From contig NZ_CP114035.2 of the NCBI RefSeq assembly GCF_026898135.2, positions 248,001 through 312,000 of the forward strand: DNA of 64,000 nucleotides, written 5' to 3'. Positions 21,503 through 41,290 of this stretch are shown here, one piece after another. The notes under the pieces are model-generated. The model was given only the letters and a program-made list of their open reading frames with translations. It was not told the DNA's origin and ran no database searches. Source of the stretch: Pseudomonas fortuita (GTDB lineage: Bacteria > Pseudomonadota > Gammaproteobacteria > Pseudomonadales > Pseudomonadaceae). The translations under genes and the position numbers were made by a program. Positions within the stretch are counted from its first letter, which is position 1. The number at the start of each line of letters is the position of its first letter.

Positions 21503-22147
21503 CTATCGCTTGTTCAGGCCCTTCGCCAGGCGGTCCCCACCCAGCTGGATCAACGCCACCAACGCCACCAGCATGGCAATCACGGTCAGCATGATCTGGC
21601 TGTCAAAGCGCTGGTAGCCATACCGGTAGGCAATGTCGCCCAAGCCCCCGGCACCGATCGCACCGGCCATGGCCGAGGAGTTGATCAGGGTCACCAGGGT
21701 AATGGTGAACCCCCCGACGATGCCCGGCAGCGCCTCGGGCAACAGCACGTGCCAGACGATGTGCCAACGCCGACAGCCCATGGCCTGTGCAGCTTCCACC
21801 AAACCATGGTCGACTTCGCGCAGGCTGACCTCGGCAATGCGCGCAAAAAACGGCGTGGCGGCAATGGTCAGCGGCACCACCGCCGCCCACACCCCGTAGG
21901 TGGTGCCTACCACCAGGCGGGTGAAGGGGATCAGCGCGACCATCAGGATCAGGAACGGGATCGAGCGGAACAGGTTGACGAAGGCGCCCAGCACCCGGTT
22001 CAGCAACGGTGCCTCGAAGATTCCGCCCTTGTCGCTGGTGACCAGCAGCACCGCCATGGGCACCCCCACCAGCAGGGCGATCAGCGACGACACGCCGACC
22101 ATCAGCAAGGTGTCGAGCAAGCCGTCCAGCAGGCGATCAAACCACAT
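21503..22147 (-). CDS. metI: ABC permease, methionine-type (MetI family)
   Basis: Inner-membrane permease of 214 aa with about five helices and the MetI-type EAA loop ([21 protein letters not shown]). The last visible pattern, [24 protein letters not shown], is the hallmark of MetI proteins. The start ATG 22147 overlaps the end of the metN gene by 11 bases; a start 13 codons upstream is not needed. It completes a MetNIQ importer with the two genes upstream. In this operon, which also encodes two kinds of flavin monooxygenase, the substrate may be a methionine-related or other organosulfur compound rather than methionine itself. Confidence 0.93.
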
Positions 22148-23246
22148 GGCCCAGTACCTCCACGTCCTCGGCCCAGCGGCGGGCACGTTCCAGCAGTTGA
22201 TGGGTGTCGTGCGGCGAATGTTGCACCGACAGGATCAGTTGCCCCAAGGCATGCTCGCCGATGGTTTCCACGCCGCCCTGCAGCAGGCGTACGCGGCCGC
22301 CCAGATCGTTGAACAAAGCAGACAGCTCGGGCTCACCGAGCAGGGTCAGTTTCAGCACTACAGCGCTGTCGCGGCTTACCGGGCTGGCCCGCAAGCTGGC
22401 TTGCAGTGCGGCAGGCAACCTGGCCTGCAACGGCGCTAGCAGGGTTCGGGTGACCTCGTGGCGTGGGGCACCGAACACCCGCCAGACTTCGCCCTGCTCG
22501 ACCACTTCGCCGCGCTCCAGCACGACCACCCGGTGGCAGATATCGCGGATTACCGCCATTTCGTGGGTGATCAGCACGATGGTCAGGCCCAGCCGCCGGT
22601 TGATGTCGCGCAGCAACTCAAGGATCGAAGCGGTGGTTTCCGGGTCCAGCGCCGAGGTAGCTTCGTCGCACAGCAAAATCTCGGGGTCGTGTACCAGCGC
22701 CCGGGCAATGCCGACGCGCTGTTTCTGCCCGCCAGACAGCTGCGCCGGGTACACGTGGTGCTTTTCCTGCAAACCGACCAGCTCAAGCAAAGCGCGCACC
22801 TTGCGCTGGCGCTCGGCCTTGGCCACGCCGGCCACTTTCAACGGCAGTTCGACGTTTTGCCATACGGTCTTGGCCGACATCAGGTTGAAGTGCTGGAAGA
22901 TCATGCCGATGCGCCTGCGCAGCGCCACCAGGTGGTCCTCATCGAAAGGCGCGATGTCCACCTGGTCGATCAGCACCCGGCCCTGGCTGGGTTGCTCCAG
23001 GCGGTTGATGGTACGCAGCAGTGAAGACTTGCCGGCACCGCTGCGGCCGATGATGCCGAAGATCTCGCCATGGCGGATGTTCAGGTCGATGCCTTGCAAG
23101 GCCGGTTGCGGCTGGCCAGGGTAGGTCTTGCCCAGGCCGATAAAGCGTACATGGGCTTCATTGACCTCCGGGCGCAGGGCCTGTTCCTTGACCGGTGGCG
23201 GCGATGGTTGTGGTGCAGGCGCCCTGAGCGCGTGGGCCTGGCGCAT
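22137..23246 (-). CDS. metN: ABC ATPase, methionine-type (MetN family)
   Basis: ATPase of 369 aa. Walker [10 protein letters not shown] (near residue 70), signature LSGGQKQR, Walker [17 protein letters not shown] and H-loop VLITHEMAV are intact. The form DEATSALDP and the C-terminal NIL domain (about 290-365), which binds the transported amino acid and inhibits the importer, mark it as MetN. An extra proline-rich stretch of about 30 residues precedes the ABC domain. It lies one base after metQ and overlaps metI, so translation is coupled. Whether the NIL domain here senses methionine or another sulfur compound cannot be told. Confidence 0.92.
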
Positions 23247-23247
23247 G

Positions 23248-24048
23248 TCAGCCTTCCCAACCGGCTTGGTAGAGCTTGCCGTGGGCTTTGTCCAATGCTG
23301 CGCGCACCACCGGAGAGTGCTGGTAGATGTCGACGAACCTGGCCAGCCGTGGGTCGTCCTTGCTTTGCGGGCGGATGACGAACTGGATCACGTATTCCTT
23401 GTTTTCCAGGCCGTCGAACAGCAATGCCGAGGTGGCATCGAAGGTGTTGGCCAGGCGGATGTAGGCCGGGTAGCCCTGCACCAGGTCGGCGTCGTCGTAG
23501 GCGCGGACCAGCTGAACCGCCTCGACCTGAAGGATTTTCAGCTTTTTCGGGTTGGCGACGATGTCGTCCTCGGTGGCCTTGTAACCAACACCTGGCTTCA
23601 GGGTGATCAGCCCGGCCTTGGCCAGCAGTTGCAGGCCACGGCCGCTGTTGATCGGGTCGTTGGCGATCGCCACGCTGGCGCCCTCAGGCAGCTCGGCAAA
23701 GCTCTTGTACTTTTTCGAGTACAGGCCAACGTTGTTGATGATGCCCGAGGCGTAAGGCACCAGGTTGAAGCCCGCAGCAGCCTTGGCGTTCTCCAGGAAC
23801 GGGATGTGCTGGAAGTAGTTCACGTCGATGTCGCCGCTGTTGAGGCTGACGTTGGGCGCGATCCAGTCGCTGAATTCGATCAGCTTCACTTCCAGGCCTT
23901 GCTTGTGCGCTTCTTCCACGGCGGCTTCCAGCGGAATGGCAAAAGCCGAGGTGGTGCCGATCTTCAGCGGTTCGGCAGCCAGGACACTGGCGGACAGGCC
24001 CAGGGTGAGGGCAATGGCCGCGACGGGCCGGAACAGTTTCTCAAGCAT
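23248..24048 (-). CDS. metQ: Substrate-binding protein, MetQ/NlpA family
   Basis: Protein of 266 aa. Signal peptide [18 protein letters not shown] ends near SVLA-AEP and has no lipobox cysteine, so it is a soluble periplasmic protein and not a lipoprotein as most MetQ are. The body carries the NLPA patterns ([49 protein letters not shown]). ATG 24048 overlaps the stop of the monooxygenase gene by eight bases; a longer reading would add a charged leader and is rejected. It is the receptor for the adjacent MetNI pair. Order monooxygenase-metQ-metN-metI suggests the ligand is also the substrate of the oxygenases. Confidence 0.92.
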
Positions 24049-25432
24049 GGTGCAGGGCTCCAGTCGGGGCAGGGGTTGGGGTAAAGCGGTAGGTCGAGCC
24101 CGGGTGGTCGGCGGGCAGGTGCGGGTGGTCGGCCTGGAACAGCTTTTCGCGCAGGGTGCCTTCGGCATAGGCGGTCTTGTAGCGGCCACGCTGTTGCAAC
24201 TGCGGGATGACCAGGTCGATGAAGTCCTCGAAACTTTCCGGGGTGACGGTGCGGGTCAGGTTGAAACCGTCCAGCCCGGTTTCGTCGATCCAGGCGATCA
24301 ACTGTTCGGCCACCTGTTCCGGTGAGCCGACCAGGGTTACGTAGCGGCCACCCAGGGCGTGCTGTTCAAGCAGGCGACGGCGGGTCCAGGCGCTGTTCTG
24401 CAACTGGCGCGTGGCGGACTGGATGGCATTGCCCTGGCTGAAGCCAATCGGCTCGTCCAGCCCGTAGGCCGCAAAGTCGATGCCGGTGGAGGCGGCGAAG
24501 TGCGCGACGCCGGCCTCGGGGCTTGCATGGCGCAGGTATTCGGCATGCTTGGCCTGGGCCGCTTGCTCGGTAGGGGCGACGATCACCGTGATGCCCATGA
24601 ACACTTTGATCGCTTGCGGGTCGCGCCCGGCGGCCTGGGCGGCAGCGCGCACCTTGTCGACCTGGGCGCGGGTGGCGGCCTTGTCCTGGCCACTGATGAA
24701 CACGCATTCGGCATGGTTGCCGGCGAACGCCAGGCCACGCTGCGAGCTGCCGGCCTGGAACAGTACTGGGGTGCGTTGCGGCGAGGGTTCGCTCAGGTGA
24801 TAGCCCTCGACGTTGTAGAACTCGCCGTGGTGGCTGACCTTGCGCACCTTGTCGGGCCGGGCATAGACGCGCTGCTTGCGGTCTGCGACCACCGCGTCAT
24901 CGGCCCAGCTGCCTTCCAGCAGCTTGTAAAGCACTTGCAGGTATTCGTCGGCCTGGTCGTAGCGACGGTCATGCTCGGGTTGCTGCTCAAGGCCCATGGC
25001 CCGGGCGGCGCTGTCGAGGTAGCCGGTGACGATGTTCCAGCCCACCCGGCCATTGCTCAGGTGGTCGAGGGTGGAAAGCCGCCGGGCGAACAGGTATGGC
25101 GCTTCGTAGGTGAGGTTGGCGGTAAGGCCGAACCCCAGATGGCGGGTGACGGCAGCCATGGCCGAAACCAGCAGCAGCGGGTCGTTGACCGGCAGCTGGA
25201 TCGACTCCTTGAGGGTGACGTCCAGCGACTGGCCGTAGATGTCGTAGGTGCCGACGATGTCGGCAATGAATAGCCCGTCGAACAGGCCGCGCTCCAGCAG
25301 GCGGGCCAGATCGGTCCAGTATTCCAGGGACTTGTACTGGGTCGAGGTATCCCGTGGGTGGGTCCACAGGCCGTGGTTGATGTGCCCGATGCAGTTCATG
25401 TTGAAGGCATTGAGCAGAATCTGCCTGGCCAT
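24041..25432 (-). CDS. FMNH2-dependent monooxygenase, NtaA/SnaA/DszA family
   Basis: Luciferase-like flavin monooxygenase of 463 aa. The N-terminus (LLNAFNMNCIGHINHGLW), LSNGRVGWNIVTGYLDSAARAMG and QAGSSQRGLAFAGNHAE are hallmarks of the group that includes nitrilotriacetate monooxygenase and the dibenzothiophene-sulfone enzyme DszA. Such enzymes use reduced FMN supplied by a separate reductase and cleave C-N or C-S bonds. No flavin reductase is encoded in this operon; SsuE at 40697 is a possible donor. The start overlaps the stop of the acyl-CoA-dehydrogenase-like gene by one base (TGATG), and its stop lies inside metQ. The substrate is not predictable; an organosulfur compound is likely from context. 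Confidence 0.92.
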   Translation of the reverse strand: MARQILLNAFNMNCIGHINHGLWTHPRDTSTQYKSLEYWTDLARLLERGLFDGLFIADIVGTYDIYGQSLDVTLKESIQLPVNDPLLLVSAMAAVTRHLGFGLTANLTYEAPYLFARRLSTLDHLSNGRVGWNIVTGYLDSAARAMGLEQQPEHDRRYDQADEYLQVLYKLLEGSWADDAVVADRKQRVYARPDKVRKVSHHGEFYNVEGYHLSEPSPQRTPVLFQAGSSQRGLAFAGNHAECVFISGQDKAATRAQVDKVRAAAQAAGRDPQAIKVFMGITVIVAPTEQAAQAKHAEYLRHASPEAGVAHFAASTGIDFAAYGLDEPIGFSQGNAIQSATRQLQNSAWTRRRLLEQHALGGRYVTLVGSPEQVAEQLIAWIDETGLDGFNLTRTVTPESFEDFIDLVIPQLQQRGRYKTAYAEGTLREKLFQADHPHLPADHPGSTYRFTPTPAPTGALHHA

Positions 25433-26613
25433 CAGATGGTCCCCCGGCGTGGCGGGTTGGTATCGTTGAGGTAGTAGTTGCCGATGGCGTGATACTTCCA
25501 GCGCACCGGGTCGTGCAGGGTATGCACGCGGGCGTTGCGCCAGTGGCGGTCGAGGTTGTGCTCGGCCAGCGTTGCCTGGCTGCCGCCCAGTTCGAACAGG
25601 GCAGTACCGGCAGCGAGCGAAATCTCGGTGCTGATGGCACGTGCTTCGGCCACGGCAATGGAGGCGGCGGCCACGTTGTCGGCCGTGCTGTCGTCGCGGG
25701 CGCGGTCGAGGTATTCGCCGGCGCGCTCCAGCAGGGCTTCGGCGGCATGCAGACGGATCGCCAGGTGGCCGAAACTCTTCAGCGTCAGCGGGTCATCCGT
25801 AGCCTTGTCCAGGCCCGAGTCGACCCACGGGCGGCTGCGGGTGCGCACGAAGTGCAGGGCATCTTCATAAGCGGCGCGGGCGATGCCAGTGTCGATGGCA
25901 GCATGAAGAATTTGCGCCAGCGGCCCGACCGGCGTGGGGCGCTCGAACGCGCTCTGGAACGGCACCACATCGGCGGCGCTGACGTACACGTTGTCAAACA
26001 CCACCGAACCGCTGCCAGTGGTCCGCTGACCGAAGCCGCTCCAGTCGTCGATCACCTGCAAGCCCTGGCTATCGGCCGGGACGAAGGCCAGCTGCTGCAC
26101 GCCTTGTTCATCGACGACCGAGGTGGGAATGCGCTGGGCGTAGATGGCGCCGGTGGAATAGAACTTGCGGCCGTTGATGCGAAAGCCGTCGCCGTCACGG
26201 CTCAGGCGGGTGGTGCGATCGTTGGCGGTTTTGGTGCCCAGCTCGGCCAGCGCATTGCCGAAGCGCCGGCCGGCGAGTACTTCGGCGTACAGGCGCTGTT
26301 GCTGCTCGGGGGTGCCGTTTACCCGCAGCACTTCCAGGCCGTAGAAATGGTTTTGCGGGATTTGCCCGAGCGAGCCGTCGGCCTGGGCGATACGGGCGAT
26401 GACCTTGGCCAGGGTGACGTGGGACACGCCGGCGCCGCCAAAGGCCTTGGGCACGCTGATGGCCCACAGGCCGGAGCGGGTGAACAGCTCCAGCTCGGTA
26501 TGCGGCAGGCGGCGCTCGCGATCGCGCAGGACGCTGTCGCGGCGCAGTTGCTGGGCGATGTCTTCGGCGACGGCCAGGGCCTGAGCGTCGCTGGTGATGA
26601 TAGCGATTGTCAT
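25432..26613 (-). CDS. Acyl-CoA-dehydrogenase-fold flavin monooxygenase (DszC/SfnC-like), copy A
   Basis: Protein of 393 aa with the acyl-CoA dehydrogenase fold, of the subgroup used as flavin monooxygenases (DszC, SfnC). Markers are LPHTELELFTRSGLWAISVPKAFGGAGV, SLGQIPQNHFYGLEVL, GRKFYSTGA, DDWSGFGQRTTGSGSV, and the end motif HTLHDPVRWKYHAIGNYYL. The catalytic Glu of true acyl-CoA dehydrogenases is not evident, in keeping with oxygenase use. CGGAG precedes ATG 26613. It is about half identical by eye to the gene at 26755 and probably arose by duplication. It forms an operon with the DszA-like gene and metQNI. Likely role: an S-oxidation step before C-S cleavage. Confidence 0.9.
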   Translation of the reverse strand: MTIAIITSDAQALAVAEDIAQQLRRDSVLRDRERRLPHTELELFTRSGLWAISVPKAFGGAGVSHVTLAKVIARIAQADGSLGQIPQNHFYGLEVLRVNGTPEQQQRLYAEVLAGRRFGNALAELGTKTANDRTTRLSRDGDGFRINGRKFYSTGAIYAQRIPTSVVDEQGVQQLAFVPADSQGLQVIDDWSGFGQRTTGSGSVVFDNVYVSAADVVPFQSAFERPTPVGPLAQILHAAIDTGIARAAYEDALHFVRTRSRPWVDSGLDKATDDPLTLKSFGHLAIRLHAAEALLERAGEYLDRARDDSTADNVAAASIAVAEARAISTEISLAAGTALFELGGSQATLAEHNLDRHWRNARVHTLHDPVRWKYHAIGNYYLNDTNPPRRGTI

Positions 26614-26624
26614 AGAGTTCTCCG

Positions 26625-26742
26625 GGGGCCGCTTCGCGGCCCTTCGCGGGCTTGCCCGCTCCCACAGGTAAAGTGATGCCAGTTCAGGCGGCGGTAATCC
26701 TGTGGGACCGGGCAAGCCCGCGAAGGGCTGCGCAGCAGCCCC
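26625..26742. repeat. Inverted pair of REP elements
   Basis: Two facing REPs: 26625-26668 (GGGGCCGCTTCGCGGCCC ... CCCACAGG) and 26699-26742 in reverse, 30 bases apart. They lie between the two DszC-like genes on the same strand, so may attenuate or stabilise the shared transcript. Confidence 0.9.
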
Positions 26743-26754
26743 AAAGGCAGCAAA

Positions 26755-27996
26755 TCAGATCCAGGAATGCCGCGCAGGCAGGGTGCCGTTGAGGTGGTAC
26801 GCGCCCACCGCGTGGTACTTCCAGCGCACCGGGTCGTGCAGGGTGTGCACCCGGGCATTGCGCCAGTGGCGGTCGAGGTTGAACTCGGCAAGGGTGGCGC
26901 GGCTGCCGGCCAGTTCGAACAGCTTCTCGCTGGCCTGCAGGGCAATTTCGGTGGTCAGCACCTTGGCCTCGGCCACCGCAATCGAGGCGCGTGCCGCGCT
27001 GGCTGCGTCGATGGGCGCAGCATTGACCTCGTCGAGTACCCGCGCGGCTCTGCGTAGCAGCGCTTCGGCAGCGTGCAGTTCGAGCTTCAGGCGGCCGATG
27101 TCGGCAATCACATAAGGGTCGTCACTGGCGCGGTCCACGTTGGCTTCGATCCACGGGCGGGACTTTTCCCGCACGAACGTGATCGCATCGTCGATTGCCG
27201 CTTCGGCAATGCCGGCGTCGATCGCCGCCTGGATCAGCTGCGAGGCTGCGCCCTGGATGTTGGGGATGTCACGCTGGCGCCAGTTGTCGATCACCAGCTC
27301 CGCGTCTACCGGCACCTCGTCCAGCAATACAGTGCCGCTGGCGGTGGTGCGCTGGCCGAACCCGGACCAGTCATCGACGATGCGCAGCCCCGGGCTGCCA
27401 CGGCGCACGAACGCCAGGCGCTGACGACCTTCCTCGTCGAGGGCTTTTACCGCCACCCAGTGGGCGAACAGGGCACCGGTGGAATAGAACTTCTCGCCGC
27501 TGATGCGATAGCTGTCGCCGGCGCGGGTGATCCGGGCCTTGAGGGTGAGGGTGTCCTTGGTGCCGCGTTCGGGGCCGGCATTGCCGATGCGCCAGCCGTC
27601 GAGCACGCTGCGGAAGATCAGCGCCTGTTGCGCCTCGGTGGCTGTCAGGCGAATCAGTTGCAGCATGCCGAACTGGTTCTGCGGGATCTGCCCCAGGGCC
27701 GGGTCGGCGGCACTGATCAGGCGGAACACTTCGGCCACGGTTGCGAACGACACGTCGGGGCCGCCGTGGGCCTTGGGTACGCTGATGCTGCCCAGGCCGC
27801 TGCGGGTGAACAGCTCGATCTCCGCCCACGGCAGTTTGCGTTGCTGGTCGCGGCGGGCGGCTTGCTCGCGGGCAACCTCGGCCAGTTCACGGGCCGCTTG
27901 CAGGGCTTCGGCGTCGGTGCGCAGTACCTTGGCCGGCAGCAGCAGGGGCGAGCTGTCGAGATCGCTATGGAATTGGGTATTTGGCTGGCTGGACAT
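26755..27996 (-). CDS. Acyl-CoA-dehydrogenase-fold flavin monooxygenase (DszC/SfnC-like), copy B
   Basis: Protein of 413 aa, paralogue of the gene at 25432. The same blocks recur: LPWAEIELFTRSGLGSISVPKA, ALGQIPQNQFGMLQLI, GEKFYSTGALFA, DDWSGFGQRTTASGTV and HTLHDPVRWKYHAVGAYHL. The N-terminus is about 20 residues longer. AAGGAG lies before ATG 27996, so a longer start at 28110 is rejected. It is the first gene of the putative transcription unit, with a dyad-rich upstream region, and is separated from copy A by a REP pair. Two copies may act on different substrates or form a heteromer. Expected to need reduced flavin from another locus. Confidence 0.9.
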   Translation of the reverse strand: MSSQPNTQFHSDLDSSPLLLPAKVLRTDAEALQAARELAEVAREQAARRDQQRKLPWAEIELFTRSGLGSISVPKAHGGPDVSFATVAEVFRLISAADPALGQIPQNQFGMLQLIRLTATEAQQALIFRSVLDGWRIGNAGPERGTKDTLTLKARITRAGDSYRISGEKFYSTGALFAHWVAVKALDEEGRQRLAFVRRGSPGLRIVDDWSGFGQRTTASGTVLLDEVPVDAELVIDNWRQRDIPNIQGAASQLIQAAIDAGIAEAAIDDAITFVREKSRPWIEANVDRASDDPYVIADIGRLKLELHAAEALLRRAARVLDEVNAAPIDAASAARASIAVAEAKVLTTEIALQASEKLFELAGSRATLAEFNLDRHWRNARVHTLHDPVRWKYHAVGAYHLNGTLPARHSWI

Positions 27997-28216
27997 CAGT
28001 ACCGCTCCTTGGCTGCACTCAATGCCCTGGCGATACGCACTGGGGTGATTGTGATCCTGACCATTCCTGACCTCACAAAAAAGTTGTGTCGCTACAGCTG
28101 GTCGCGACAAATGTGTGCTGGTCCGGTGGTCCGGTTTATATACCCTAATGCTTTATAAAAAGTTTATGAACTAACTCTTTGGAATATGTATAGAAGGAGG
28201 GATTTGTTACAGATGT
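27997..28216 (-). promoter_or_regulatory. Promoter region of the DszC-like/met operon
   Basis: Contains an inverted repeat TGTCGC...GCGACA (28087-28109), a tandem octamer GGTCCGGT twice (28120-28135), and an AT-rich block with TATAAA-like words (about 28136-28190). These are plausible binding sites for a sulfur-starvation activator such as CysB. No -24/-12 sigma-54 element was found. Confidence 0.55.
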
Positions 28217-28315
28217 GCCGGCCCTTTCGCGGGCACGCCCGCTCCCACAGGTACTGCACAGGTATTGAAACCGGTGCGACACCTGTGGGAGCGGGCGTGC
28301 CCGCGAAGAGGCCGG
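28217..28315. repeat. Inverted pair of REP elements
   Basis: GCCGGCCCTTTCGCGGGC...CCCACAGGT (28218-28252) faces its reverse copy (28281-28315). It lies just after the tcyN stop, downstream of the cystine transporter operon, so it can protect or end that transcript. Confidence 0.9.
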
Positions 28316-28322
28316 AACAGGT

Positions 28323-29087
28323 TTACTCGGAGGCGGCAGTGCCGAGGAACTTGCGCAGGAACTGGCGGGTACGCTCTTCCTTCGGCGCCGCAAACAGTGC
28401 CTTGGCCTCGCCCTGTTCCACGATCACGCCCTTGTCGAAGAAGATCACCCGGTTCGCTACGTCCCGGGCAAAGCTCATCTCGTGGGTGACAATGATCATG
28501 GTGCGTTTCTCCTCGGCCAGGCCGCGGATGGTCGCCAGCACTTCACCCACCAGCTCCGGGTCCAGTGCCGAGGTGGGTTCGTCGAACAGGATCACCTCCG
28601 GCTCCATGGCCAGGGCGCGGGCGATGGCCACCCGTTGCTGCTGCCCGCCCGACAGGCGCCGTGGGTAGGCGTCTTCCTTGCCTGCCAGACCGACCTTGGC
28701 CAGCAGGCGCCGGCCCAGTTCGATGGCTTGCTCGCGGGGCGTCTTCTTGACGATCACCGGCCCCTCGATCACGTTCTCCAGGGCGGTACGGTGGGGGAAC
28801 AGGTTGAAGTTCTGGAATACGAACCCGGCCTGCTGGCGCAGGCGGCGTATCGCACTTTGCTGGCCACCCAGCGGGCGGTTGGCATCGATGCTGATGGCGC
28901 CTATCTTGATCTGCCCGGCGTCGGGGGTTTCCAGCAGGTTCAGGCAGCGCAGGAAGGTGGTCTTGCCCGAGCCGCTGGGGCCGATGATGGCCACCACTTC
29001 GCCGGGCTGCACGGTCAGGTCGATGCCGTTGAGCACGGTCTGGCCCTTGAACTGCTTGGTCAGGCCTTTGACTTCAATCATGCTCAT
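28323..29087 (-). CDS. tcyN: Cystine-type ABC transporter ATPase
   Basis: ATPase of 254 aa of the polar amino acid family. Walker [10 protein letters not shown] (about 35-43), signature LSGGQQQR, Walker B VILFDEPTSALDPE and H-loop MIIVTHEM are intact. ATG 29087 overlaps the permease stop by four bases. With the two upstream genes it forms a binding protein-permease-ATPase operon like E. coli TcyJLN (FliY-YecSC), which imports L-cystine and related sulfur amino acids. Position amid sulfur genes supports cystine over other polar amino acids, but the ATPase itself is not substrate-specific. Confidence 0.88.
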   Translation of the reverse strand: MSMIEVKGLTKQFKGQTVLNGIDLTVQPGEVVAIIGPSGSGKTTFLRCLNLLETPDAGQIKIGAISIDANRPLGGQQSAIRRLRQQAGFVFQNFNLFPHRTALENVIEGPVIVKKTPREQAIELGRRLLAKVGLAGKEDAYPRRLSGGQQQRVAIARALAMEPEVILFDEPTSALDPELVGEVLATIRGLAEEKRTMIIVTHEMSFARDVANRVIFFDKGVIVEQGEAKALFAAPKEERTRQFLRKFLGTAASE

Positions 29088-29752
29088 TGCTCCTGGTCAT
29101 GCTGGTTGACCCGCGCTTCCATGCGGTTCTGGAAGTGCGCGAGGATGCTGCACAGCACCCAGTAGATGACCGCGACCGCCACGTACATGGTGAACACTTC
29201 GAAGGTGCGTGCGGTAATCAGCTGCGCCTGGCGGAACAGCTCTGGCACCTGGATGGTCGCGGCCAGCGCAGTGTCCTTGACCAGTGAAATGAAGCTGTTG
29301 CCCAGCGGGGGCAGGGCGGTACGCAAGGCTTGTGGCAGGATCGCCCGGCGCATGGCCTGGACGCGGGTCATGCCGATACTGGCGGCGGCTTCCCACTGGC
29401 CACGGTCGATCGAGGAGATTGCAGCGCGCAGGATCTCGCAAATGTAGGCCGCCATGTTCAGCGAAAGGCCGATCAGCGAAGCCGGGATGGGATCGAGTTC
29501 GATGCCGATCTGCGGCATGCCGAAATAGATCACGAACAACTGCACCAGCAGCGGCGTGCCGCGGAAGAACGACACGTAGATCCGCGCCAGCCAGTTCAGC
29601 GGCAAGAGCTTCGAAAGCCGCATCAGCGCCAGGGCAAAGCCCAGCAGCAGGCCGAAGAACATGCCGCCGACACTGAGCAGCACTGTATAACCCGCGCCCT
29701 TCAGCAGGAAGGGCGCGGAGTCGACAACGAGTTGCAGGCTTTCAGCAATCAT
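29084..29752 (-). CDS. tcyL: Cystine-type ABC transporter permease
   Basis: Inner-membrane permease of 222 aa of the HisM/GlnP family. It has about five helices and the family loop WEAAASIGMTRVQAMRRAILPQALR. FRGTPLLVQLFVIYFGMPQ near residue 63 and NSFISLVKDTALAATIQVPEL near 150 are typical of amino-acid permeases such as YecS/TcyL. It overlaps the binding-protein stop and the ATPase start by four bases each. A homodimer is expected to form the pore. Confidence 0.9.
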   Translation of the reverse strand: MIAESLQLVVDSAPFLLKGAGYTVLLSVGGMFFGLLLGFALALMRLSKLLPLNWLARIYVSFFRGTPLLVQLFVIYFGMPQIGIELDPIPASLIGLSLNMAAYICEILRAAISSIDRGQWEAAASIGMTRVQAMRRAILPQALRTALPPLGNSFISLVKDTALAATIQVPELFRQAQLITARTFEVFTMYVAVAVIYWVLCSILAHFQNRMEARVNQHDQEQ

Positions 29753-30543
29753 TTGGTGACATCGGCACCGAAGTATTTTTCGGACAGCTTGGCCAGTCTG
29801 CCGTCAGCCTTTAGCTTGTCGATGGCCTTGTTGATGGCCGCCAGCAGTTCAGGCTCGCCCTTACGCAGCGCCACGCCGCTTTCCAGGCGCGAGAAGGCAT
29901 CGCCGGCCAGTTCGGTGTCTTTGGCTTTTTGCGCGTATTCCAGCGCGGCCAAGCGGTCGATCAGGATGGCATCGATACGGCCGTTGCGCAGGTCGGCGAA
30001 CTTGCTCGGGTCGTCTTCATAGGTGCGCACTTCGGCTTTCGGGACGTCTTGCTTGACCCACTGTTCGTAGTTGGTGCCCAGGCCCACGCCGACTTTTTTG
30101 CCGGCCAGGTCTTGCGCGGTCTTGATGTTCAGGTCCGCGGCTTTCTTCTTCAGGATCAGGGCCTGGATGCCCGAAACGGTATAGGGCTCAGAGAAATCGT
30201 ATTTCTTCTTGCGCTCCTCGGAGATGGTCACCTGATTGACCACCACGTCCAGGCGCTTGGATTCCAGCGCGGCAAGGATGCCATCCCACTTGGTCGGCTG
30301 GATCTTGGCCTTGACCCCCAGCTCCTTGGCCAGCAGTTCCGAAAGCTCCACTTCGAAGCCCGCCAGCTTGCCGTTCTCGTCCTGGAAACTGAACGGTGGG
30401 TAGGTGCCTTCGAGGCCGACGTTGATCACGCCTTTTTCCTGGATGGTCTTCAACTGCTCGCCGGCGAACGCCTGGCTGAGCAGGCCGGCACCCAGCAGGA
30501 TGGCCAGGCTGGCGTTGAGTAGCGGTTTGGCGAATTTCGACAT
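29749..30543 (-). CDS. tcyJ: Periplasmic cystine-binding protein
   Basis: Protein of 264 aa of solute-binding family 3. Signal peptide MSKFAKPLLNASLAILLGAG ends at QAFA-GEQ. The body has the ligand patterns LEGTYPPFSFQDENGKLAGFEVEL, AALESKRLDVVVNQVTI, YDFSEPYTVSG and GLGTNYEQWV, close to FliY/TcyJ. It is the first gene of the tcyJLN operon and has a promoter region with a long dyad upstream. Divergent from epsC, the enzyme making the O-acetylserine precursor of cysteine, which fits a cystine/cysteine role. Confidence 0.9.
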   Translation of the reverse strand: MSKFAKPLLNASLAILLGAGLLSQAFAGEQLKTIQEKGVINVGLEGTYPPFSFQDENGKLAGFEVELSELLAKELGVKAKIQPTKWDGILAALESKRLDVVVNQVTISEERKKKYDFSEPYTVSGIQALILKKKAADLNIKTAQDLAGKKVGVGLGTNYEQWVKQDVPKAEVRTYEDDPSKFADLRNGRIDAILIDRLAALEYAQKAKDTELAGDAFSRLESGVALRKGEPELLAAINKAIDKLKADGRLAKLSEKYFGADVTK

Positions 30544-30874: not shown

Positions 30875-31807
30875 GTGAGCGAACAACCTTCATCCGCGCA
30901 CTGGCAGTTGCACAGCATTGTCACTGGCCTGCGTGGCGCCCGTGAGCAGTGGCGCACCCGCAATGGCCGCAGCATTGGCGAGCAGGGCGGGCGCGAGCTG
31001 CCGTCGCGCGAGGCGATGCGGCAGATCCTGGAGCAACTGTGCGGCGCGTTGTTCCCCATGCGCCTTGGGCCTGTGGACCTGCGCGAAGAGAGCGAAGACT
31101 TCTACGTTGGCCATACCCTGGATGCCGCGCTGACTGCATTGCTGACCCAGGCGCGCCTGGAGTTGCGCTATGCCGCCCGGCAAAGCAAGGCTGAGCTGGC
31201 CAGCGTCGATGGCCATGCGTTGAAGCTGATCCAGGGCTTTGCTGCTGCGCTGCCGGAAATGCGGGTGCTGCTCGACACCGACGTGCTGGCCGCCTACCAC
31301 GGCGACCCCGCCGCGCGCAGCGTCGATGAAGTGCTGCTGTGCTACCCGGGTATCCTGGCGATCATCCACCACCGCCTGGCGCACCACCTGTACCGGGCCG
31401 GCCTGCCACTGCTGGCACGGATCAGTTCGGAGCTGGCGCATTCGGCGACCGGTATCGATATTCACCCGGGCGCACAGATCGGCCCGAGCTTCTTCATCGA
31501 CCACGGTACCGGGGTGGTCATTGGTGAAACCGCGATCATCGGCGAGCGCGTGCGTATCTACCAGGCGGTGACCCTGGGCGCCAAACGCTTCCCCAGCGAT
31601 GAGTCCGGCACCCTGCACAAAGGCCTGCCGCGCCATCCGATTGTCGAGGACGATGTGGTGATCTACGCCGGGGCCACGGTGCTGGGGCGTATTACCATCG
31701 GCAAGGGTTCGACCATTGGCGGTAACGTGTGGCTGACCCGCAGTGTGCCTGCTGAAAGCAACATCACCCAGGCCAACCTGCAGCTGGATTGCCAGGACAA
31801 GAATTGA
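30875..31807 (+). CDS. epsC: Serine O-acetyltransferase (EpsC/CysE type)
   Basis: Protein of 310 aa, left-handed beta-helix acyltransferase that makes O-acetylserine from serine and acetyl-CoA, the acceptor for sulfide in cysteine synthesis. The hexapeptide domain runs from about 190 to 300, with GIDIHPGAQIGPSFFIDHGTGVVIGETA carrying the catalytic His-Asp region and IYQAVTLGAKRFP following. The long N-terminal helical domain marks the EpsC subtype (proteobacterial second serine acetyltransferase). The start is GTG 30875 with AGGAG seven bases upstream. A solo REP lies in the leader. The C-terminal tail is short, so cysteine feedback may differ from CysE; this is inference. Also called cysE in some Pseudomonas annotations. 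Confidence 0.9.
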   Translation: MSEQPSSAHWQLHSIVTGLRGAREQWRTRNGRSIGEQGGRELPSREAMRQILEQLCGALFPMRLGPVDLREESEDFYVGHTLDAALTALLTQARLELRYAARQSKAELASVDGHALKLIQGFAAALPEMRVLLDTDVLAAYHGDPAARSVDEVLLCYPGILAIIHHRLAHHLYRAGLPLLARISSELAHSATGIDIHPGAQIGPSFFIDHGTGVVIGETAIIGERVRIYQAVTLGAKRFPSDESGTLHKGLPRHPIVEDDVVIYAGATVLGRITIGKGSTIGGNVWLTRSVPAESNITQANLQLDCQDKN

Positions 31808-34219: not shown

Positions 34220-35101
<882 letters not shown>

Positions 35102-35941
35102 TCAGTGGCTCTGCCCGTGCCAGGGCACCAGTTTGCGTTGCAGGGCCCGCAGGCTCATTTCCAGGGCGAAGGCGATCAGGGCGATCAGCAAAATGCCCAG
35201 CACCACCACATCGGTGACCAGGAACTGCGCCGCCGACTGGACCATGAAGCCCAGGCCGCTGGTGGCGGCAATCAGCTCGGCGGCTACCAGTGTCGACCAG
35301 CCGACCCCCAGGCCGATGCGGATGCCGGTGAGGATGTCGGGCAGCGCACTGGGCAGGATCACATGGCGGATCAGTTGGGCCTTGGTCGCGCCCAGCGACT
35401 GCGCCGCCCGCAGCTTGGCCGGGTCGACCGTGCGCACACCGGTGGCGGTGGCAATGGCGATCGGGGCGAAGATCGCCAGGTAGATCAGCAGCACCTTCGA
35501 CAGCTCGCCGATACCGCACCAGATGACGATCAACGGCAGGTAGGCCAGCGGCGGGATGGGCCGGTAGAACTCGATCAGCGGGTCGAGGATGCCACGGGCC
35601 ACGCGGTTGTAGCCGATGGCGATGCCGACCGGGATCGCGGTCAGGGTCGCGGCCACCAGCGCCAGGCCGATACGGCCCAGGCTTGCGCCCAGGTGCTGCC
35701 ACAGGCTGGCGTCCATGTAGCCCTGGGTCAGCAGGGTCCAGGCCCTGGCCAGGATGTCGCCGGGCGAGGGCAGGAACAGGGGCTCGATCCAGCCGGCGGC
35801 CGTCACCAGCCACCAGACCAGCAGCAGGCTGGCCAAGGTCAGGGTGCTGATCCAGCGAGTGGACAGTGGTCGGCGCAGCTTGGCGGCGGGCCGGGTTTGT
35901 GCGGTGTGTTTGCCGGCGACCGGCAGGTCCAGGCTGCTCAT
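35102..35941 (-). CDS. tauC: Taurine ABC transporter permease
   Basis: Inner-membrane permease of 279 aa of the BPD_transp_1 type, with six likely helices. After a basic N-terminus, the first helix ([19 protein letters not shown]) is followed by the family phrase FLPSPGDIL. The EAA loop is [39 protein letters not shown] is typical of TauC. ATG 35941 overlaps tauB by four bases. Part of the taurine importer. Confidence 0.93.
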
Positions 35942-36726
35942 GCGCGCTCCTGCAGGCTTTGGCGTTGGGAGAACACCCGCGCCAGTACATGCTCGCGGGT
36001 TTCGATAAAGGCGGGGTCGGACTTGATGGCCCGGGCCGATTCGCCAGCGGCATAGCGCTGGCCGAAGTCCAGTTGCAGGCGTTCCACCACGCGCCCCGGG
36101 TTGGGCGCCAGCAGTACCAGCTCGCTGGCGAGGAACACCGCTTCTTCGATGTCGTGGGTAATCAGGAACACCGGCTTGGCGGTGCGCTGCCACACCTGAA
36201 GCAGCAGTTCCTGCATCTGCTCGCGGGTGAACGCGTCGAGGGCGCCGAACGGTTCATCCATCAGCAATACCCGTGGGTCGGCCGCCAGCGCGCGGGCCAG
36301 GCCAACGCGCTGCTTCTGCCCACCGGACAATTGCCAGATGCGCCGCTCACCGAAGCCATCAAGGTCGACGAGGGCGAGCATTTCCCGGGCCTTGGCCTCA
36401 CGCTGGGCGCGGGGCACGCCGGCCAGTTCGAGGCCGAAGGCGACATTGCCCAGCACGTTCTGCCATGGCAGCAGGGCATCATCCTGGAACACCACGCCGC
36501 GCTCGGCACCAGGGCCTTGCACCGGTACGCCGTCGAGGGTGATGCGCCCGCCGCTGGGGGCGACAAAGCCGGCGATCAGGTTGAGCAGTGAGGTCTTGCC
36601 GCTGCCGGAAGGCCCCAGGGCCACCAGCAGCTGGCGTGGCCCCAGGCTCAGGTTGATGTCGGCCAGCACCGGGGTGCTGGCGCCAGGGTACTGTGCGCTG
36701 ATGCGCTCCAGCTCGAGCAAGGCCAT
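35938..36726 (-). CDS. tauB: Taurine ABC transporter ATPase
   Basis: ATPase of 262 aa. Walker [10 protein letters not shown] (about 38-46), signature LSGGQKQR, Walker [13 protein letters not shown] and H-loop FLITHDIEE are intact. [16 protein letters not shown] is a group marker for TauB/SsuB. GGAG precedes ATG 36726, 13 bases after tauA. It overlaps tauC by four bases, so all the membrane and ATPase parts are coupled. Named by position within tauABCD. Confidence 0.94.
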
Positions 36727-36739
36727 GACGGGCTCCGGA

Positions 36740-37711
36740 TCAGTTTGGAAGGAACTTGGCGCTGACGTACGGCGAGTAGTCCGGCAGTACGGCGTCGACC
36801 TTGCCTTGCTGCTTGAGGAAGTTGGCCGTGTCGGTCAGTGCCTGGGTGGTCGGCGCGCCCAGGGCGTTGGCCTGGTCTGCGGCCAGTGGGTAGACGTTGC
36901 CCTCCAGCAGCACCGGGATGTCGCTGGCCTTGGCGCCGGACAGCTTCACCAGCTTGTCTACGTTGCCCTTGTCGGCCAGCCAGGCTTTCGGGTCCTTGCG
37001 GTAGTCGGCGTAGGCATCGAGGGTGACTTTGGCAAACGCTTTGACCACCTCGGGGTGCTTCTCGGCGAAGTCTTTGCGCACAATCCAGGCATCGAAAGTA
37101 GGTGCGCCTTTCTGGGCCAGTTCGCCAGAGGTGATCAGCACCTTGCCATTTTCCTTGGCCACGCCCAAGGCTGGGTCCCAGACGTAGGTGGCGTCGATGT
37201 CACCACGTTTCCAGGCGGCAATGATGGCCGGCGGCGCCAGGTTGAGGATCTGGACCTTGGAGGGGTCGATGTTCCAGCTTTTCAGGGCGGCCAGCAGGCT
37301 GTAGTGGCCGGTGGAAACGAACGGCACGGCGACCTTCTTGCCGATCAGGTCTTGTGGCGTCTTGATGCTGTCGCGGGCGACCAAGGCTTCACCGGCACCA
37401 ATCTGGGTGGCGATGAGGAAGGTTTCGACCGGCAGTTTGCGGGTGGCGGCAGCGGCCAGCGGGCTGGAGCCCAGGTAGCCGATCTGCACGTCGCCGCTGG
37501 CCACCGCAGTGATCACGTCTGCGCCGTTATCGAATTTGCGCCAGTCGATGCTGGCCTTGCTGGCTTTTTCGTAGTCGCCATCGACCTGGGCCACTTTGGC
37601 CGGGTCGACGGTGGTCTGATAGGCCACGGTCAGGTCGGCGGCCTGAGCAAACCAGCTGGTGCTGGCGAGGGTCAGGGCAGCGAACAGGCGCAGCGGAGCG
37701 TGCGGGATCAT
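36740..37711 (-). CDS. tauA: Periplasmic taurine-binding protein
   Basis: Protein of 323 aa. Signal peptide [17 protein letters not shown] ends at FAQA-ADL. Family patterns include [39 protein letters not shown] and [19 protein letters not shown], as in TauA. GAGAGG lies before ATG 37711; a start seven codons earlier is unlikely. First gene of the tauABCD operon, whose upstream region is AT-rich. Receptor for taurine and perhaps related C2 sulfonates. Confidence 0.94.
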
Positions 37712-37836
37712 GGTGGACCTCTCGTCAGGCAATCAGGGTGTTGGATGGCGAGAAGACTAAATGATCTAAGAATTTCTAAATAAATAACTTTTTTGCATTA
37801 GCTTAGGAGCCAAATGCTTTAAGCCCAAGGGGAGTG
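37712..37836 (-). promoter_or_regulatory. tauA promoter region
   Basis: AT-rich stretch (about 37757-37808). On the minus strand the words CTAAG ... GTTATTTATTTAGAAATT ... CTTAG form an outer dyad around an A/T core, resembling the blocks before lsfA, ssuE and tcyJ. It is probably a CysB-dependent, sulfate-repressed promoter. No separate tauR gene is adjacent. Confidence 0.5.
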
Positions 37837-38364: not shown

Positions 38365-39693
38365 ATGTACAAGTCCAGCCTGGCCCTGGCCGTGGCACTG
38401 GGGGTTCTCGCCCAACAAGCAGGCGCTGCCGGTTTCGTCGAAGACAGCAAACTGTCGCTTAGCTCGCGCACCATGTACTTCAACAACGACAACCGTGACG
38501 GTGGCGCTGACAACCGTGAATCGGGTCAGGGCTTCAAGCTCGACTACCTGTCCGGTTTCACTGAAGGCACCGTTGGTTTCGGTGTGGACGTCCAGGCCCT
38601 GTGGGGTATTCACCTGGATGGTGGCCGCGGCAAGCACCCTGACAACAGCTCCTTCTTCCCAAGCGACACCGACGGTTCGGCTGTAAGCCAGTGGGCCCGT
38701 GTGGGTGGTAACGCCAAGGCACGCTTCTCGAAGACCGAAGTTCACTACGGTAGCGCCCTGGCGCCGAACCTGCCGATCCTGGTCTCCAACGATGGCCGTC
38801 TGCTGCCGCAAACCTTCGAGGGTGGCACCATCCAGTCGAAGGAAATCGACAACCTGACCATTAACGCCGGTCAGCTGACCCACGCCATGGGCCGTGCTTC
38901 GAGCAACCGTACCGGCCTGTCGGTAGCGGGTGCTACCCAGGACAGCAACAAGTTCCGTTACGGCGGCCTGGACTACAAGCTCACGCCAGACCTGACCCTG
39001 CAGTACTACTACTCGAACCTGGAAGACTTCTACAAGCAGCACTTCCTGGGCGCGACTCACGTGTTCAAGATCGCTGACGACCAGTCGTTCAAGACCGACC
39101 TGCGCTACTTCGACAGCAGCAGCGACGGCAAGAACGGCGAGGCCGGCTACCGCTTCAACAACAACGGTGGCTATGCCAAGAACACTGGCGAGGTCGACAA
39201 CAAGACCTGGTCCGCGATGTTCACCTACACCCTGGGTGGCCACTCGCTGATGCTCGGCCATCAGCGCGTCAATGACGACGGTGGCTTCGTCTGGCTGAAC
39301 CAGGGCAGCGTGGTAGATGGTAATGGCCGCAACGAAGGCGCCGGCGGTTCCAGCTTCTACCTGTTCACTGACAGCATGATCAACCAGTTCGCCAAGGCCG
39401 GTGAAAACACCACCTTCGGTCAGTACGCCTACGACTTCGCTCGCCTGGGCGTGCCGGGCCTGAAAGCATCGGTTGCCTACCTGAAAGGTGAAGACGGTAA
39501 AAATGCCAACGGCAACGGCCACTTCAGCGAGTGGGAGCGTGATGCCCGTATCGACTACGTGATCCAGGACGGCACCTTCAAGGGCCTGGGCGCCAGCCTG
39601 CGTCACGGTGTGTACCGCGGCACCGGCACCAGTTCGCTGGCTGACCAGGATCAGACCCGTCTGATCTTCAACTACACTTACAACTTCCTGTAA
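38365..39693 (+). CDS. oprE: OprD-family outer-membrane porin
   Basis: Porin of 442 aa. Signal peptide MYKSSLALAVALGVLAQQAGA ends before AGFVEDSKL. The mature protein shows the OprD layout: LSSRTMYFNNDNRD, QGFKLDYLSGFTEGTVGFGVD, SDGSAVSQWARVGGNAKARFSKTEV and alternating strands up to the C-terminal FNYTYNFL. OprD family members take up amino acids and aromatic or organic acids. I use oprE from recollection of the locus in P. putida; the family call is much firmer than the symbol. Between tauA and lsfA, it may admit sulfonates. It has strongly biased codons and a terminator, so is likely abundant. Confidence 0.85.
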   Translation: MYKSSLALAVALGVLAQQAGAAGFVEDSKLSLSSRTMYFNNDNRDGGADNRESGQGFKLDYLSGFTEGTVGFGVDVQALWGIHLDGGRGKHPDNSSFFPSDTDGSAVSQWARVGGNAKARFSKTEVHYGSALAPNLPILVSNDGRLLPQTFEGGTIQSKEIDNLTINAGQLTHAMGRASSNRTGLSVAGATQDSNKFRYGGLDYKLTPDLTLQYYYSNLEDFYKQHFLGATHVFKIADDQSFKTDLRYFDSSSDGKNGEAGYRFNNNGGYAKNTGEVDNKTWSAMFTYTLGGHSLMLGHQRVNDDGGFVWLNQGSVVDGNGRNEGAGGSSFYLFTDSMINQFAKAGENTTFGQYAYDFARLGVPGLKASVAYLKGEDGKNANGNGHFSEWERDARIDYVIQDGTFKGLGASLRHGVYRGTGTSSLADQDQTRLIFNYTYNFL

Positions 39694-39710
39694 GCCGTAG
39701 CTGAACAAGA

Positions 39711-39736
39711 AGCCTCGCGTGATGCGAGGCTTTTTT
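39711..39736 (+). terminator. Intrinsic terminator after oprE
   Basis: AGCCTCGC-GTGA-TGCGAGGCT stem followed by TTTTTT; a classic rho-independent terminator. Confidence 0.92.
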
Positions 39737-39858
39737 GTGCCTGCAAATTTGTATGCATTATGGTTATAAATAAATCGTTATTTATTCTTTTTGTTTTTAA
39801 CCGAATGCAGGCACATTGAACCCATACGGTACAGAACCCAGCCAAGGAGCCGCAGCCC
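39737..39858 (+). promoter_or_regulatory. lsfA promoter region
   Basis: AATAAAT-CGTT-ATTTATT at 39769-39786 is a perfect dyad in an AT-rich block, about 75 bases before the lsfA start. It is the clearest of the AT-rich dyads that precede sulfur-starvation genes here. AAGGAG lies before the ATG. Confidence 0.6.
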
Positions 39859-40497
39859 ATGAGCCTTAAACTCGGCGATATCGCCCCCGATTTCGAACAG
39901 GATTCCAGCGAAGGCAAAATTCGCTTCCACGAGTGGCTGGGCAACAGCTGGGGGGTGTTGTTCTCCCATCCGGCCGACTTCACCCCGGTGTGCACCACCG
40001 AGCTGGGCCTGACCGCCAAACTCAAGGACGACTTCGCCAAGCGCGGGGTCAAGGCCATCGCCCTGTCGGTAGACCCGGTCGACTCGCACCATAAGTGGAT
40101 CGAGGACATCAACGAAACCCAGAACACGGTGGTCAACTTCCCGATCATTGCCGATGCCGACCGCAAGGTGTCCGACCTGTACGACCTGATTCACCCGAAC
40201 GCCAGTGACACCCTGACTGTGCGCTCGCTGTTCGTCATCGACCCGAACAAAAAGGTACGCCTGACCATCACTTATCCGGCCAGTACCGGGCGCAACTTCA
40301 ATGAGATCCTGCGGGTGATCGACTCGCTGCAGCTGACCGACAACCACAAAGTCGCCACACCCGGTAACTGGCAGGACGGCGATGAGGTGGTGATCGTGCC
40401 TTCGCTCAAAGATGAGGAAGAGATCAAGCAGCGCTTCCCCAGAGGATATCGGGCGGTCAAACCCTATCTGCGCCTGACCCCTCAGCCAAACCGTTAA
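39859..40497 (+). CDS. lsfA: 1-Cys peroxiredoxin, sulfate-starvation induced
   Basis: Peroxiredoxin of 212 aa of the Prx6 class. The peroxidatic Cys is C45 in FTPVCTTE; there is no other cysteine in the protein, so it works by the 1-Cys mechanism with an outside reductant. The long C-terminal dimerisation arm (PGNWQDGDEVVIVPSL) is typical of the class. LsfA was first found in P. putida as a low-sulfur induced protein, and its place before ssuEADCBF agrees. It likely removes peroxides made when flavin and iron oxygenases run uncoupled during sulfur scavenging; this is inference. Ends at a good terminator. Confidence 0.95.
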   Translation: MSLKLGDIAPDFEQDSSEGKIRFHEWLGNSWGVLFSHPADFTPVCTTELGLTAKLKDDFAKRGVKAIALSVDPVDSHHKWIEDINETQNTVVNFPIIADADRKVSDLYDLIHPNASDTLTVRSLFVIDPNKKVRLTITYPASTGRNFNEILRVIDSLQLTDNHKVATPGNWQDGDEVVIVPSLKDEEEIKQRFPRGYRAVKPYLRLTPQPNR

Positions 40498-40696: not shown

Positions 40697-41290
40697 ATGC
40701 TGGTTGTCTCAATCGGTGGTAGCCCAAGTCTCCGTTCACGCTCCGGCGTGCTGCTAGAGCGTTCACGCCAGTGGCTACAGGACCGTGGCGTCGAGGTGGT
40801 GACGTTCCAGGTACGTGACTTCCCCGCCGAAGACCTGCTGCACGCCCGCTTCGACAGCCCGCATGTGCAGCACTTCCAGCAGCTGGTAGCCCAGGCCGAT
40901 GGCCTGATCGTTTCCACCCCGGTGTACAAGGCTTCGTTTGCCGGTGCCCTTAAAACTTTGCTCGACCTGCTGCCCGAACGCGCCCTGGCCCACAAGATCG
41001 TGTTGCCAATCGCCACCGGCGGCAGCATCGCCCACATGCTGGCGGTGGATTACGCATTGAAGCCGGTGCTGTCGGCACTCAAGGCGCAAGAGACCCTGCA
41101 AGGGATCTTCGCCGACGACAGCCAGGTGGCTTACGCAGAAGGCACCAAGCCCGCGCAGTTGGTACAAGCGCTGGAAGAGCGCCTGCACGACTCGCTTGAA
41201 ACCTTCCACGTTGCCTTGGCCCGTCGGCCACGCCCCGTGGCCCCCGGTGTGCTGAACGAACGCCTGATCAGCGCCCGCTGGAGCATTTGA
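40697..41290 (+). CDS. ssuE: NAD(P)H-dependent FMN reductase
   Basis: Flavodoxin-fold reductase of 197 aa. The FMN phosphate loop is [11 protein letters not shown] near the N-terminus; [21 protein letters not shown] is the family signature. It supplies FMNH2 to the SsuD monooxygenase. It may also serve the DszA- and DszC-like enzymes encoded at 24-28 kb, which lack a reductase of their own. First gene of ssuEADCBF; 85 bases to ssuA. Soluble. Confidence 0.95.

Follow-up and report, generated by a model that had tools for sequence, protein, structure and literature searches.

In a 64-kb stretch of the Pseudomonas fortuita chromosome (the window, C1:248001-312000 of the complete 6.31-Mb genome), six genes, all on the minus strand and within positions 21503-27996, encode two SfnB-type oxygenases (SfnB1 and SfnB2), a luciferase-like monooxygenase (LLM) and the receptor, ATPase and permease of a MetNIQ-type importer (Table 1). 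As judged from its aligned residues, the pocket of the MetQ-type receptor is changed and its ligand is probably not methionine. Across genomes, this receptor change and the linkage to the oxygenase travel together, and this is the main new result. The operon is real and conserved, and represents a variation on a module type already known. The reading that we consider probable is that the whole serves organosulfur acquisition under sulfate starvation.

The residues by which MetQ holds methionine provide a reference for the altered pocket. In the N. meningitidis protein, R156, N213 and N238 grip the amino and carboxyl groups, while the thioether is packed by Y81, F98, H100 and Y103, and the N238A substitution (equivalent to E. 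coli N229A) lowers L-Met binding more than 1e5-fold (excerpts of PMC6739813 and PMC12357092). The window MetQ was compared by sequence alignment, in N. meningitidis numbering, with the 120 best of its 1279 homologues (n = 121). Position 156 is Arg in 121/121 and position 238 is Ile in 121/121; position 213 is Tyr in all 121 and Asn in none. In a second alignment position 213 falls on a gap and not on the Tyr of the QGYP motif, so that there is no Asn either way. In the cage, Y81 is replaced by Trp and Y103 by Phe throughout (121/121 each), H100 is His in every sequence, and F98 is conserved in 120, the one exception having Tyr. Thus, the carboxylate Arg and the aromatic cage are retained and the clamp for a free amino acid is lost. 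The genome also encodes two other full-length, canonical MetQ proteins, in which the Asn/Asn pair is present.

The receptor was also scored against family models. The window MetQ matches PF03180 and falls below the TIGR00363 cut-off of 228.9 bits, which the canonical pair just passes (232 and 229 bits). None of the three proteins reaches the stricter NF008285 (374), and this model does not tell them apart. There is no cysteine anywhere in the window MetQ, and hence no lipobox. The initial annotation had taken the missing lipobox as a hint that the receptor was altered; the absence holds, but translation of the two canonical metQ genes from their likely starts gives no cysteine either, so the argument does not hold and it is the pocket residues that indicate the change. 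Two features of MetN were set aside as uninformative: its miss of TIGR02314 (cut-off 500), a threshold that even the top-scoring MetN of the genome (375 bits) does not reach, and its lost transinhibition residue N295, which is absent from the genome's canonical MetN too. Outside the window, a 336-bp unit is repeated four times in tandem, with 97% matches, 3' of a canonical metQ (G000:C1:108562-109907; L013:1289-2634). Beyond the full metQ, roughly the final 42 MetQ codons recur three more times, once with an internal stop.

The association between pocket type and oxygenase was scored by a single rule, an LLM within 1.5 kb of the MetQ gene, applied equally to both pocket types. An LLM lies within this distance at 16 of 19 altered-pocket loci (all the matches of that search, from 15 of 349 genomes) and at only 1 of the 30 canonical Asn/Asn loci. 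The lone canonical case, L195, is an LLM locus in which this MetQ gene is the second.

The whole operon is conserved as a unit. A scan of named genomes confirmed at least 568 stretches, of which the best 80 loci, with LLM identities of 76-95%, were used here; their titles name Pseudomonas in 79 cases and Pantoea in one. The complete six-gene set, with order and strand kept, is found at 76 of these 80 best-matching loci, an arrangement far beyond chance. Three of the remaining four (L092, L126, L130) are truncated at contig ends and the other, L114, has LLM-MetQNI without the SfnB pair. Amongst sampled Pseudomonadaceae genomes, an LLM of at least 64% identity occurs in 76 of 198, and 12 of 16 loci chosen across the genera of this family have the six genes in order. 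In the other four the set is permuted (L060), lacks a same-strand MetNI (L054) or is incomplete, with MetQ-LLM (L052, L053). Five genomes from outside the Pseudomonadaceae all carry an LLM (52-69% identity) with MetNI, and four of the five an SfnB-type gene. Broader searches returned few genomes: a class-wide LLM search at E 1e-150 found only the genome itself amongst 321, in a sample that spans many lineages and includes some small genomes, and an order-wide MetQ search (alignment A3, E 1e-60) found 7 of 244 genomes, all of the same family. The closest relatives of the LLM carry the names P. putida, P. asiatica, P. inefficax and others, which suggests the P. putida group. Substrate clues were sought in the neighbour genes of distant loci, and none there was useful.

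Some loci hold more than one receptor type. A sister set of SfnB, LLM, MetI and MetQ types (39-56% identity) adjoins the operon at L049:12937-17170 and L059:14027-18281, and the pocket of its receptor reads Phe, Tyr, Tyr, Phe, Arg, Phe, Glu, unlike both the canonical and the window types. At L171 and L172, from another family of the same class, three MetQ-type genes surround a single MetNI, a single LLM and a pair of SfnB genes, and their receptors are of two pocket types.

The oxygenases belong to families other than those first assigned. SfnB1 and SfnB2 had been labelled DszC-like. Both exceed the curated cut-off (430.9 bits) of the SfnB equivalog TIGR04022, whereas on the DszC model NF043015 they reach 207 and 232 bits against a curated cut-off of 850. 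In DszC numbering SfnB2 keeps N129, W205, H388 and H391 and has Gln, Asn and Thr in place of H92, Y96 and S163, all positions that we take to have functional roles in DszC. The two proteins are 52% identical to each other, and each shares about 40% identity with the genome's next SfnB-type paralogue (C1:2287k). In a 20-row tree, in which long branches were flagged amongst the outer rows, SfnB1 and SfnB2 each cluster with sequences of further genera and with those of two genomes in a different family (support 97/96 for the SfnB1 group and 86/98 for the SfnB2 group, the latter under the program's star). The duplication is therefore probably old, with both copies retained. FMNH2 (reduced flavin mononucleotide)-dependent oxygenation of organic sulfur is expected of the pair, by analogy with Dms1-3 of Acinetobacter baylyi (PMC13352529).

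Similarly, the label of DszA does not fit the LLM. It passes the NtaA/DmoA model TIGR03860 (cut-off 279.7 bits), and amongst solved relatives DmoA (494 bits) and LadA (477 bits) are nearer than HcbA1 (354), riboflavin lyase (327) and DszA/BdsA (267), so DszA/BdsA is not its closest characterised relative. C14, H17 and Y63 are common to the LLM, DmoA and LadA; His311 is as in LadA (Leu in DmoA), and Tyr138 is as in DmoA (His in LadA). The LLM thus has four of the five residues C14, H17, Y63, H138 and H311, which we take to be important in LadA, and this mixture leaves the choice between DmoA and LadA unsettled by residues. A second LLM in the genome (G000:C1:3442592-3443938; L062) is 55% identical to the one in the operon, and no MetQ- or SfnB-type neighbours were seen in the 20 kb around it.

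The coordinates bear out the six genes on one strand, in the order and close spacing first described. sfnB2 and the LLM gene overlap by one base, the LLM gene and metQ by eight, and metN and metI by eleven; metQ and metN are separated by one base. The repetitive extragenic palindromic (REP)-type pair reported to follow sfnB1 is also present, as an inverted repeat with 44-nt arms that are 91% complementary. The 141-nt intergenic RNA between sfnB1 and sfnB2 folds at -103 kcal/mol (z -9.7), and this hairpin may set transcript ratios in this strain. The gap exceeds 80 bp in only 8 of 78 loci, so that most have no room for such a hairpin. A second REP-type inverted repeat, with 50-nt arms that are 86% complementary, lies at 28214-28319 in the interval between tcyN and the upstream block, and sfnB1 is thus flanked by such elements on either side. 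A search of 12 kb against Rfam gave nothing that reached the gathering threshold, and scans for sigma-70 promoters and terminators gave about chance level.

Table 1. Features of the operon and its surroundings (positions in the window)
Feature	Position	Strand	Evidence and remarks
sfnB1 (copy B)	26755..27996	-	413 aa, 0 Cys, 1 internal Met; TIGR04022 605 bits; Pfam acyl-CoA dehydrogenase domains
REP-type inverted repeat pair	26625..26742	no strand	sfnB1-sfnB2 gap; repeat search
sfnB2 (copy A)	25432..26613	-	393 aa, 0 Cys, 0 internal Met; TIGR04022 623 bits
LLM, luciferase-like FMN-dependent monooxygenase, NtaA/DmoA family	24041..25432	-	TIGR03860 552 bits; 6AK1 494 bits, 3B9N 477 bits
metQ-type substrate-binding protein, rewritten pocket (by alignment)	23248..24048	-	PF03180 242 bits; TIGR00363 154 bits; no Cys or internal Met
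metN-type ATPase with C-terminal NIL domain	22137..23246	-	PF00005, PF09383; TIGR02314 317 bits
metI-type permease	21503..22147	-	NF008049 232 bits, cut-off 212
Conserved upstream block	28121..28195	-	roughly -199 to -125 relative to the start codon of sfnB1; 79-region alignment, position weight matrix (PWM)
tcyN, tcyL, tcyJ cystine importer, separate unit	28323..30543	-	NF008428, NF011680, NF008426 above cut-off
Serine acetyltransferase EpsC/CysE	30875..31807	+	NF041874 166 bits, cut-off 150
tauABCD taurine operon	34220..37711	-	PWM match 37783-37808 before tauA
ssuE FMN reductase, first gene of ssuEADCB	40697..41290	+	TIGR03567 247 bits, above cut-off; candidate FMNH2 source

The setting of the operon is rich in sulfur genes, and in 70 of the 80 loci the three cystine importer genes tcyJ, tcyL and tcyN precede it on its own strand. 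Between the tau and ssu operons (38365-40497) are genes for an OprD-family porin and a 1-Cys peroxiredoxin, presumably lsfA. A low sulfur content is a known trend amongst sulfur-acquisition proteins (excerpts of PMC7661421). Averaged over orthologues in the 80 loci, Cys plus Met make up 0.15% of SfnB1 (n = 78), 0.05% of SfnB2 (n = 78) and 0.05% of MetQ (n = 75). Neighbouring sulfur proteins have 0.11% (TcyJ, n = 70), 2.05% (TcyN, n = 70) and 1.44% (EpsC, n = 69), neighbouring non-sulfur proteins 2.55% (EAL, n = 11), 3.71% (DesA, n = 10) and 3.78% (BetT, n = 12). In the window itself, the nine ssu and tau proteins have 0.82%.

A block upstream of sfnB1 (TTCTATnCATATTCCnAA..AGTTAGTT to ACCGGACCACCGGAC) is strongly conserved in 79 aligned upstream regions, including that of the window. 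Searches with it gave single window matches, within three and two mismatches, and its first part is unique genome-wide within two mismatches. A PWM of 26 columns, built from this first part and scanned over the window, scores 45.9 on itself, 16.6 before tauA, 8.0 before the OprD porin and 3.2 at the next site. None of 200 first-order Markov windows scored above 16, and matches above 8 averaged 0.01 per window; amongst 2000 random 300-bp stretches of 60% AT, 0.15% had a match above 16. The tau, ssu and Tcy neighbours, the Cys/Met-poor SfnB pair and the upstream motif shared with tauA suggest sulfur control, which may be of the CysB type. In P. protegens the SfnB pair PFL_0244/0245, a putative orthologue of the window sfnB pair and its operon, is reported, in a transcriptome, as up to 300-fold down in a gacS mutant, together with other sulfur-starvation genes (excerpts of PMC12892942).

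A number of observations weigh against the reading as a sulfate-starvation organosulfur module. In the linkage comparison, the canonical count covers the 30 of 44 matches that received a locus (28 of 120 genomes), and the 14 matches outside it include three altered-type copies and two sister-operon receptors. The LLM is farther than 1.5 kb or absent nearby at 3 of the 19 altered-pocket loci, which were retrieved by their similarity to the window receptor (alignment A2) and which are not independent events, because they form one clade, ten are from Pseudomonadaceae and the search alignment contained two wrong-strand rows. The pocket assignment is by sequence alignment, the structure model being too weak (mean pLDDT, the predicted local confidence score, 67.9). 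Within the operon, the LLM gene and metQ are more than 80 bp apart in 37 of 78 loci, and SfnB genes are absent from L114 and L173, so that SfnB is not essential to the core. As for composition, the LLM (1.74%, n = 80) and MetN (1.44%, n = 78) are moderately low only and MetI (3.74%, n = 78) is not sulfur-poor; the canonical MetQ proteins, with 1 and 2 internal Met and no Cys, are sulfur-poor too, and the composition signal thus rests on SfnB1 and SfnB2, MetQ poverty being weak evidence. The PWM has no match before ssuE, nothing above 4 in L062-L065 (four further stretches of the same genome, which hold paralogues of SfnB or the LLM) and no more than 5.9 in L068 and 4.8 in L069. The searched literature, which includes few subscription papers, yielded no functional study of the operon and no transcriptional or biochemical data on it. 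The system had been called a candidate undescribed one, and within that literature this holds for its function; as a set of genes it is widespread and annotated at family level.

The organosulfur acquisition module would operate as follows. The MetQ-type receptor, with its methionine amino/carboxyl clamp replaced, would bind an organosulfur compound for import by MetNI, most likely a thioether or sulfoxide with a carboxylate and without a free, methionine-like alpha-amino acid head. SfnB1 and SfnB2 would oxygenate the sulfur, with FMNH2 from a shared reductase of the SsuE or MsuE type. The DmoA/LadA-like LLM could then cleave the C-S bond oxidatively, giving an aldehyde or keto acid and a small sulfur product that may pass through MsuC/SsuD to sulfite and cysteine. 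Precedents for the steps of this route come from A. baylyi, where the group D enzymes Dms1-3 oxidise the thioether sulfur of dimethyl sulfide (DMS) and also DMSO (dimethyl sulfoxide) and are induced some 400- to 1200-fold on DMS relative to sulfate (PMC13352529, a paper that does not use the name SfnB), and from the flavin enzymes that cleave C-S bonds, DmoA, SfnG, DszA, YxeK and CmoJ amongst others (excerpts of PMC10863075). We infer sulfate-starvation control in this strain, the order of the reactions, the ligand class and the FMNH2 source. The initial annotation had likewise proposed import followed by oxidation and cleavage, and the organosulfur unit with S-oxidising and C-S-cleaving flavoenzymes is retained; its sulfone substrate does not follow, since the DszA and DszC labels fail. 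There is, as had been remarked, no flavin reductase amongst the six genes. This is unremarkable, because a single MsuE supplies electrons to Dms1-3 and many such oxygenases in A. baylyi (PMC13352529), and ssuE lies 12.7 kb from the sfnB1 start.

The loci with LLM-MetQNI and no SfnB suggest that the LLM and the receptor are the core, with the SfnB pair widening or priming the substrate range. A more specific version, which we put forward tentatively, is that these receptors are a MetQ subfamily without the amino-acid clamp that serves des-amino or N-blocked thioether or sulfoxide carboxylates, for example a methylthio-carboxylate or the hydroxy or oxo analogue of methionine. In this version import and oxidative C-S cleavage would be dedicated to such compounds, the two ancient SfnB paralogues would act sequentially on the same sulfur, and the system would be widespread in Pseudomonas and occasionally passed to other families.

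The likeliest alternative is salvage of methionine derivatives, in which the importer still takes up methionine or its sulfoxide or sulfone, and the oxygenases work later in the pathway, on these or on compounds derived from methanethiol. MetQ, MetN and MetI do belong to the methionine importer families and the Arg and aromatic/His cage is kept, but the loss of the clamp Asn pair from all 121 sequences, in a genome with two other full-length MetQ proteins of the canonical Asn/Asn type, makes this unlikely. A locus for oxidation of DMS and DMSO, with SfnB1 and SfnB2 as Dms-type enzymes and the importer incidental, is less probable again. It would draw on the activity of the group D flavin enzymes Dms1-3 on both compounds, on the consecutive locus tags of dms1 and dms2 in ADP1 and on the growth of P. 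putida KT2440 on DMS, all from PMC13352529. According to that paper, dms2 and dms3 have a single homologue in P. putida, PP_2762, of which the C1:2287k paralogue is a candidate counterpart here, and no group C enzyme oxidised DMS. Moreover, a binding-protein importer should be unnecessary for DMS, and LLM-MetQNI is found at L114 and L173 with no SfnB.

Two further possibilities concern the relatives of the oxygenases. Hydroxylation of long-chain alkanes by a LadA-type LLM would fit LadA as the second-best solved relative, the shared His311 and the annotation of the P. aeruginosa counterpart PA2348 (K20938; a table in PMC8274868, seen in excerpt). Its sulfur-poor SfnB partners, MetQNI linkage and sulfur context fit this poorly, and position 138, which we assume to matter, is the DmoA-like Tyr and not the His of LadA; we regard it as very improbable. 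A 4S-like aromatic desulfurisation by DszC, DszA and others of dibenzothiophene-type compounds would be the least expected. The enzymes are remotely similar to DszC and DszA, but the SfnB pair and the LLM belong to other families, no DszB-type desulfinase is amongst the six genes, and DszC H92, Y96 and S163, presumably functional residues, are replaced.

Considered as an organosulfur acquisition module, the operon shares features with several known systems and differs from each. The ssuEADCB and tauABCD operons combine import with desulfonation under sulfate starvation. They share the window with the operon and their proteins have a similar poverty of Cys and Met, but their substrates are sulfonates and their binding proteins are of another family. 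The B. subtilis CmoO/CmoJ operon also contains an importer. In this S-alkylcysteine salvage, two flavoenzymes carry out S-oxidation and then C-S cleavage, as proposed here, on N-acetylated S-alkylcysteines (excerpts of PMC10863075); in contrast, the six genes of the window include no acetyltransferase or deacetylase. With the SfnB family, Dms1-3, MsuC and DszC the pair shares acyl-CoA dehydrogenase domains and the expected FMNH2 dependence, and like dms1 and dms2, whose locus tags suggest neighbours, the sfnB genes are paired; they differ as 52% identical paralogues within a MetNIQ operon and lie far under the DszC cut-off. By its family score the LLM belongs with DmoA, LadA, HcbA1, DszA/BdsA and YtnJ in the NtaA/DmoA family, and it differs from them by its linkage to a MetQ-type importer and the lack of an adjacent flavin reductase. 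The importer has the three components of MetNIQ, PF03180, the ABC (ATP-binding cassette) and BPD (binding-protein-dependent transport) domains and the Arg and aromatic/His cage; its clamp Asn residues are replaced, its MetQ is under the TIGR00363 cut-off and it is tied genetically to oxygenases.

The frequency of the LLM in Pseudomonadaceae genomes and of the intact operon at the best-matching loci makes it probable that the organosulfur substrate is common in the environment. Here, a natural receptor family replaces, in 121 of 121 sequences, the residue whose mutation costs more than 1e5-fold in methionine binding. The identity of the ligand would assign a function to three oxygenases that are named by family only (SfnB, NtaA/DmoA, LadA), and would show how a MetNIQ importer was re-aimed.

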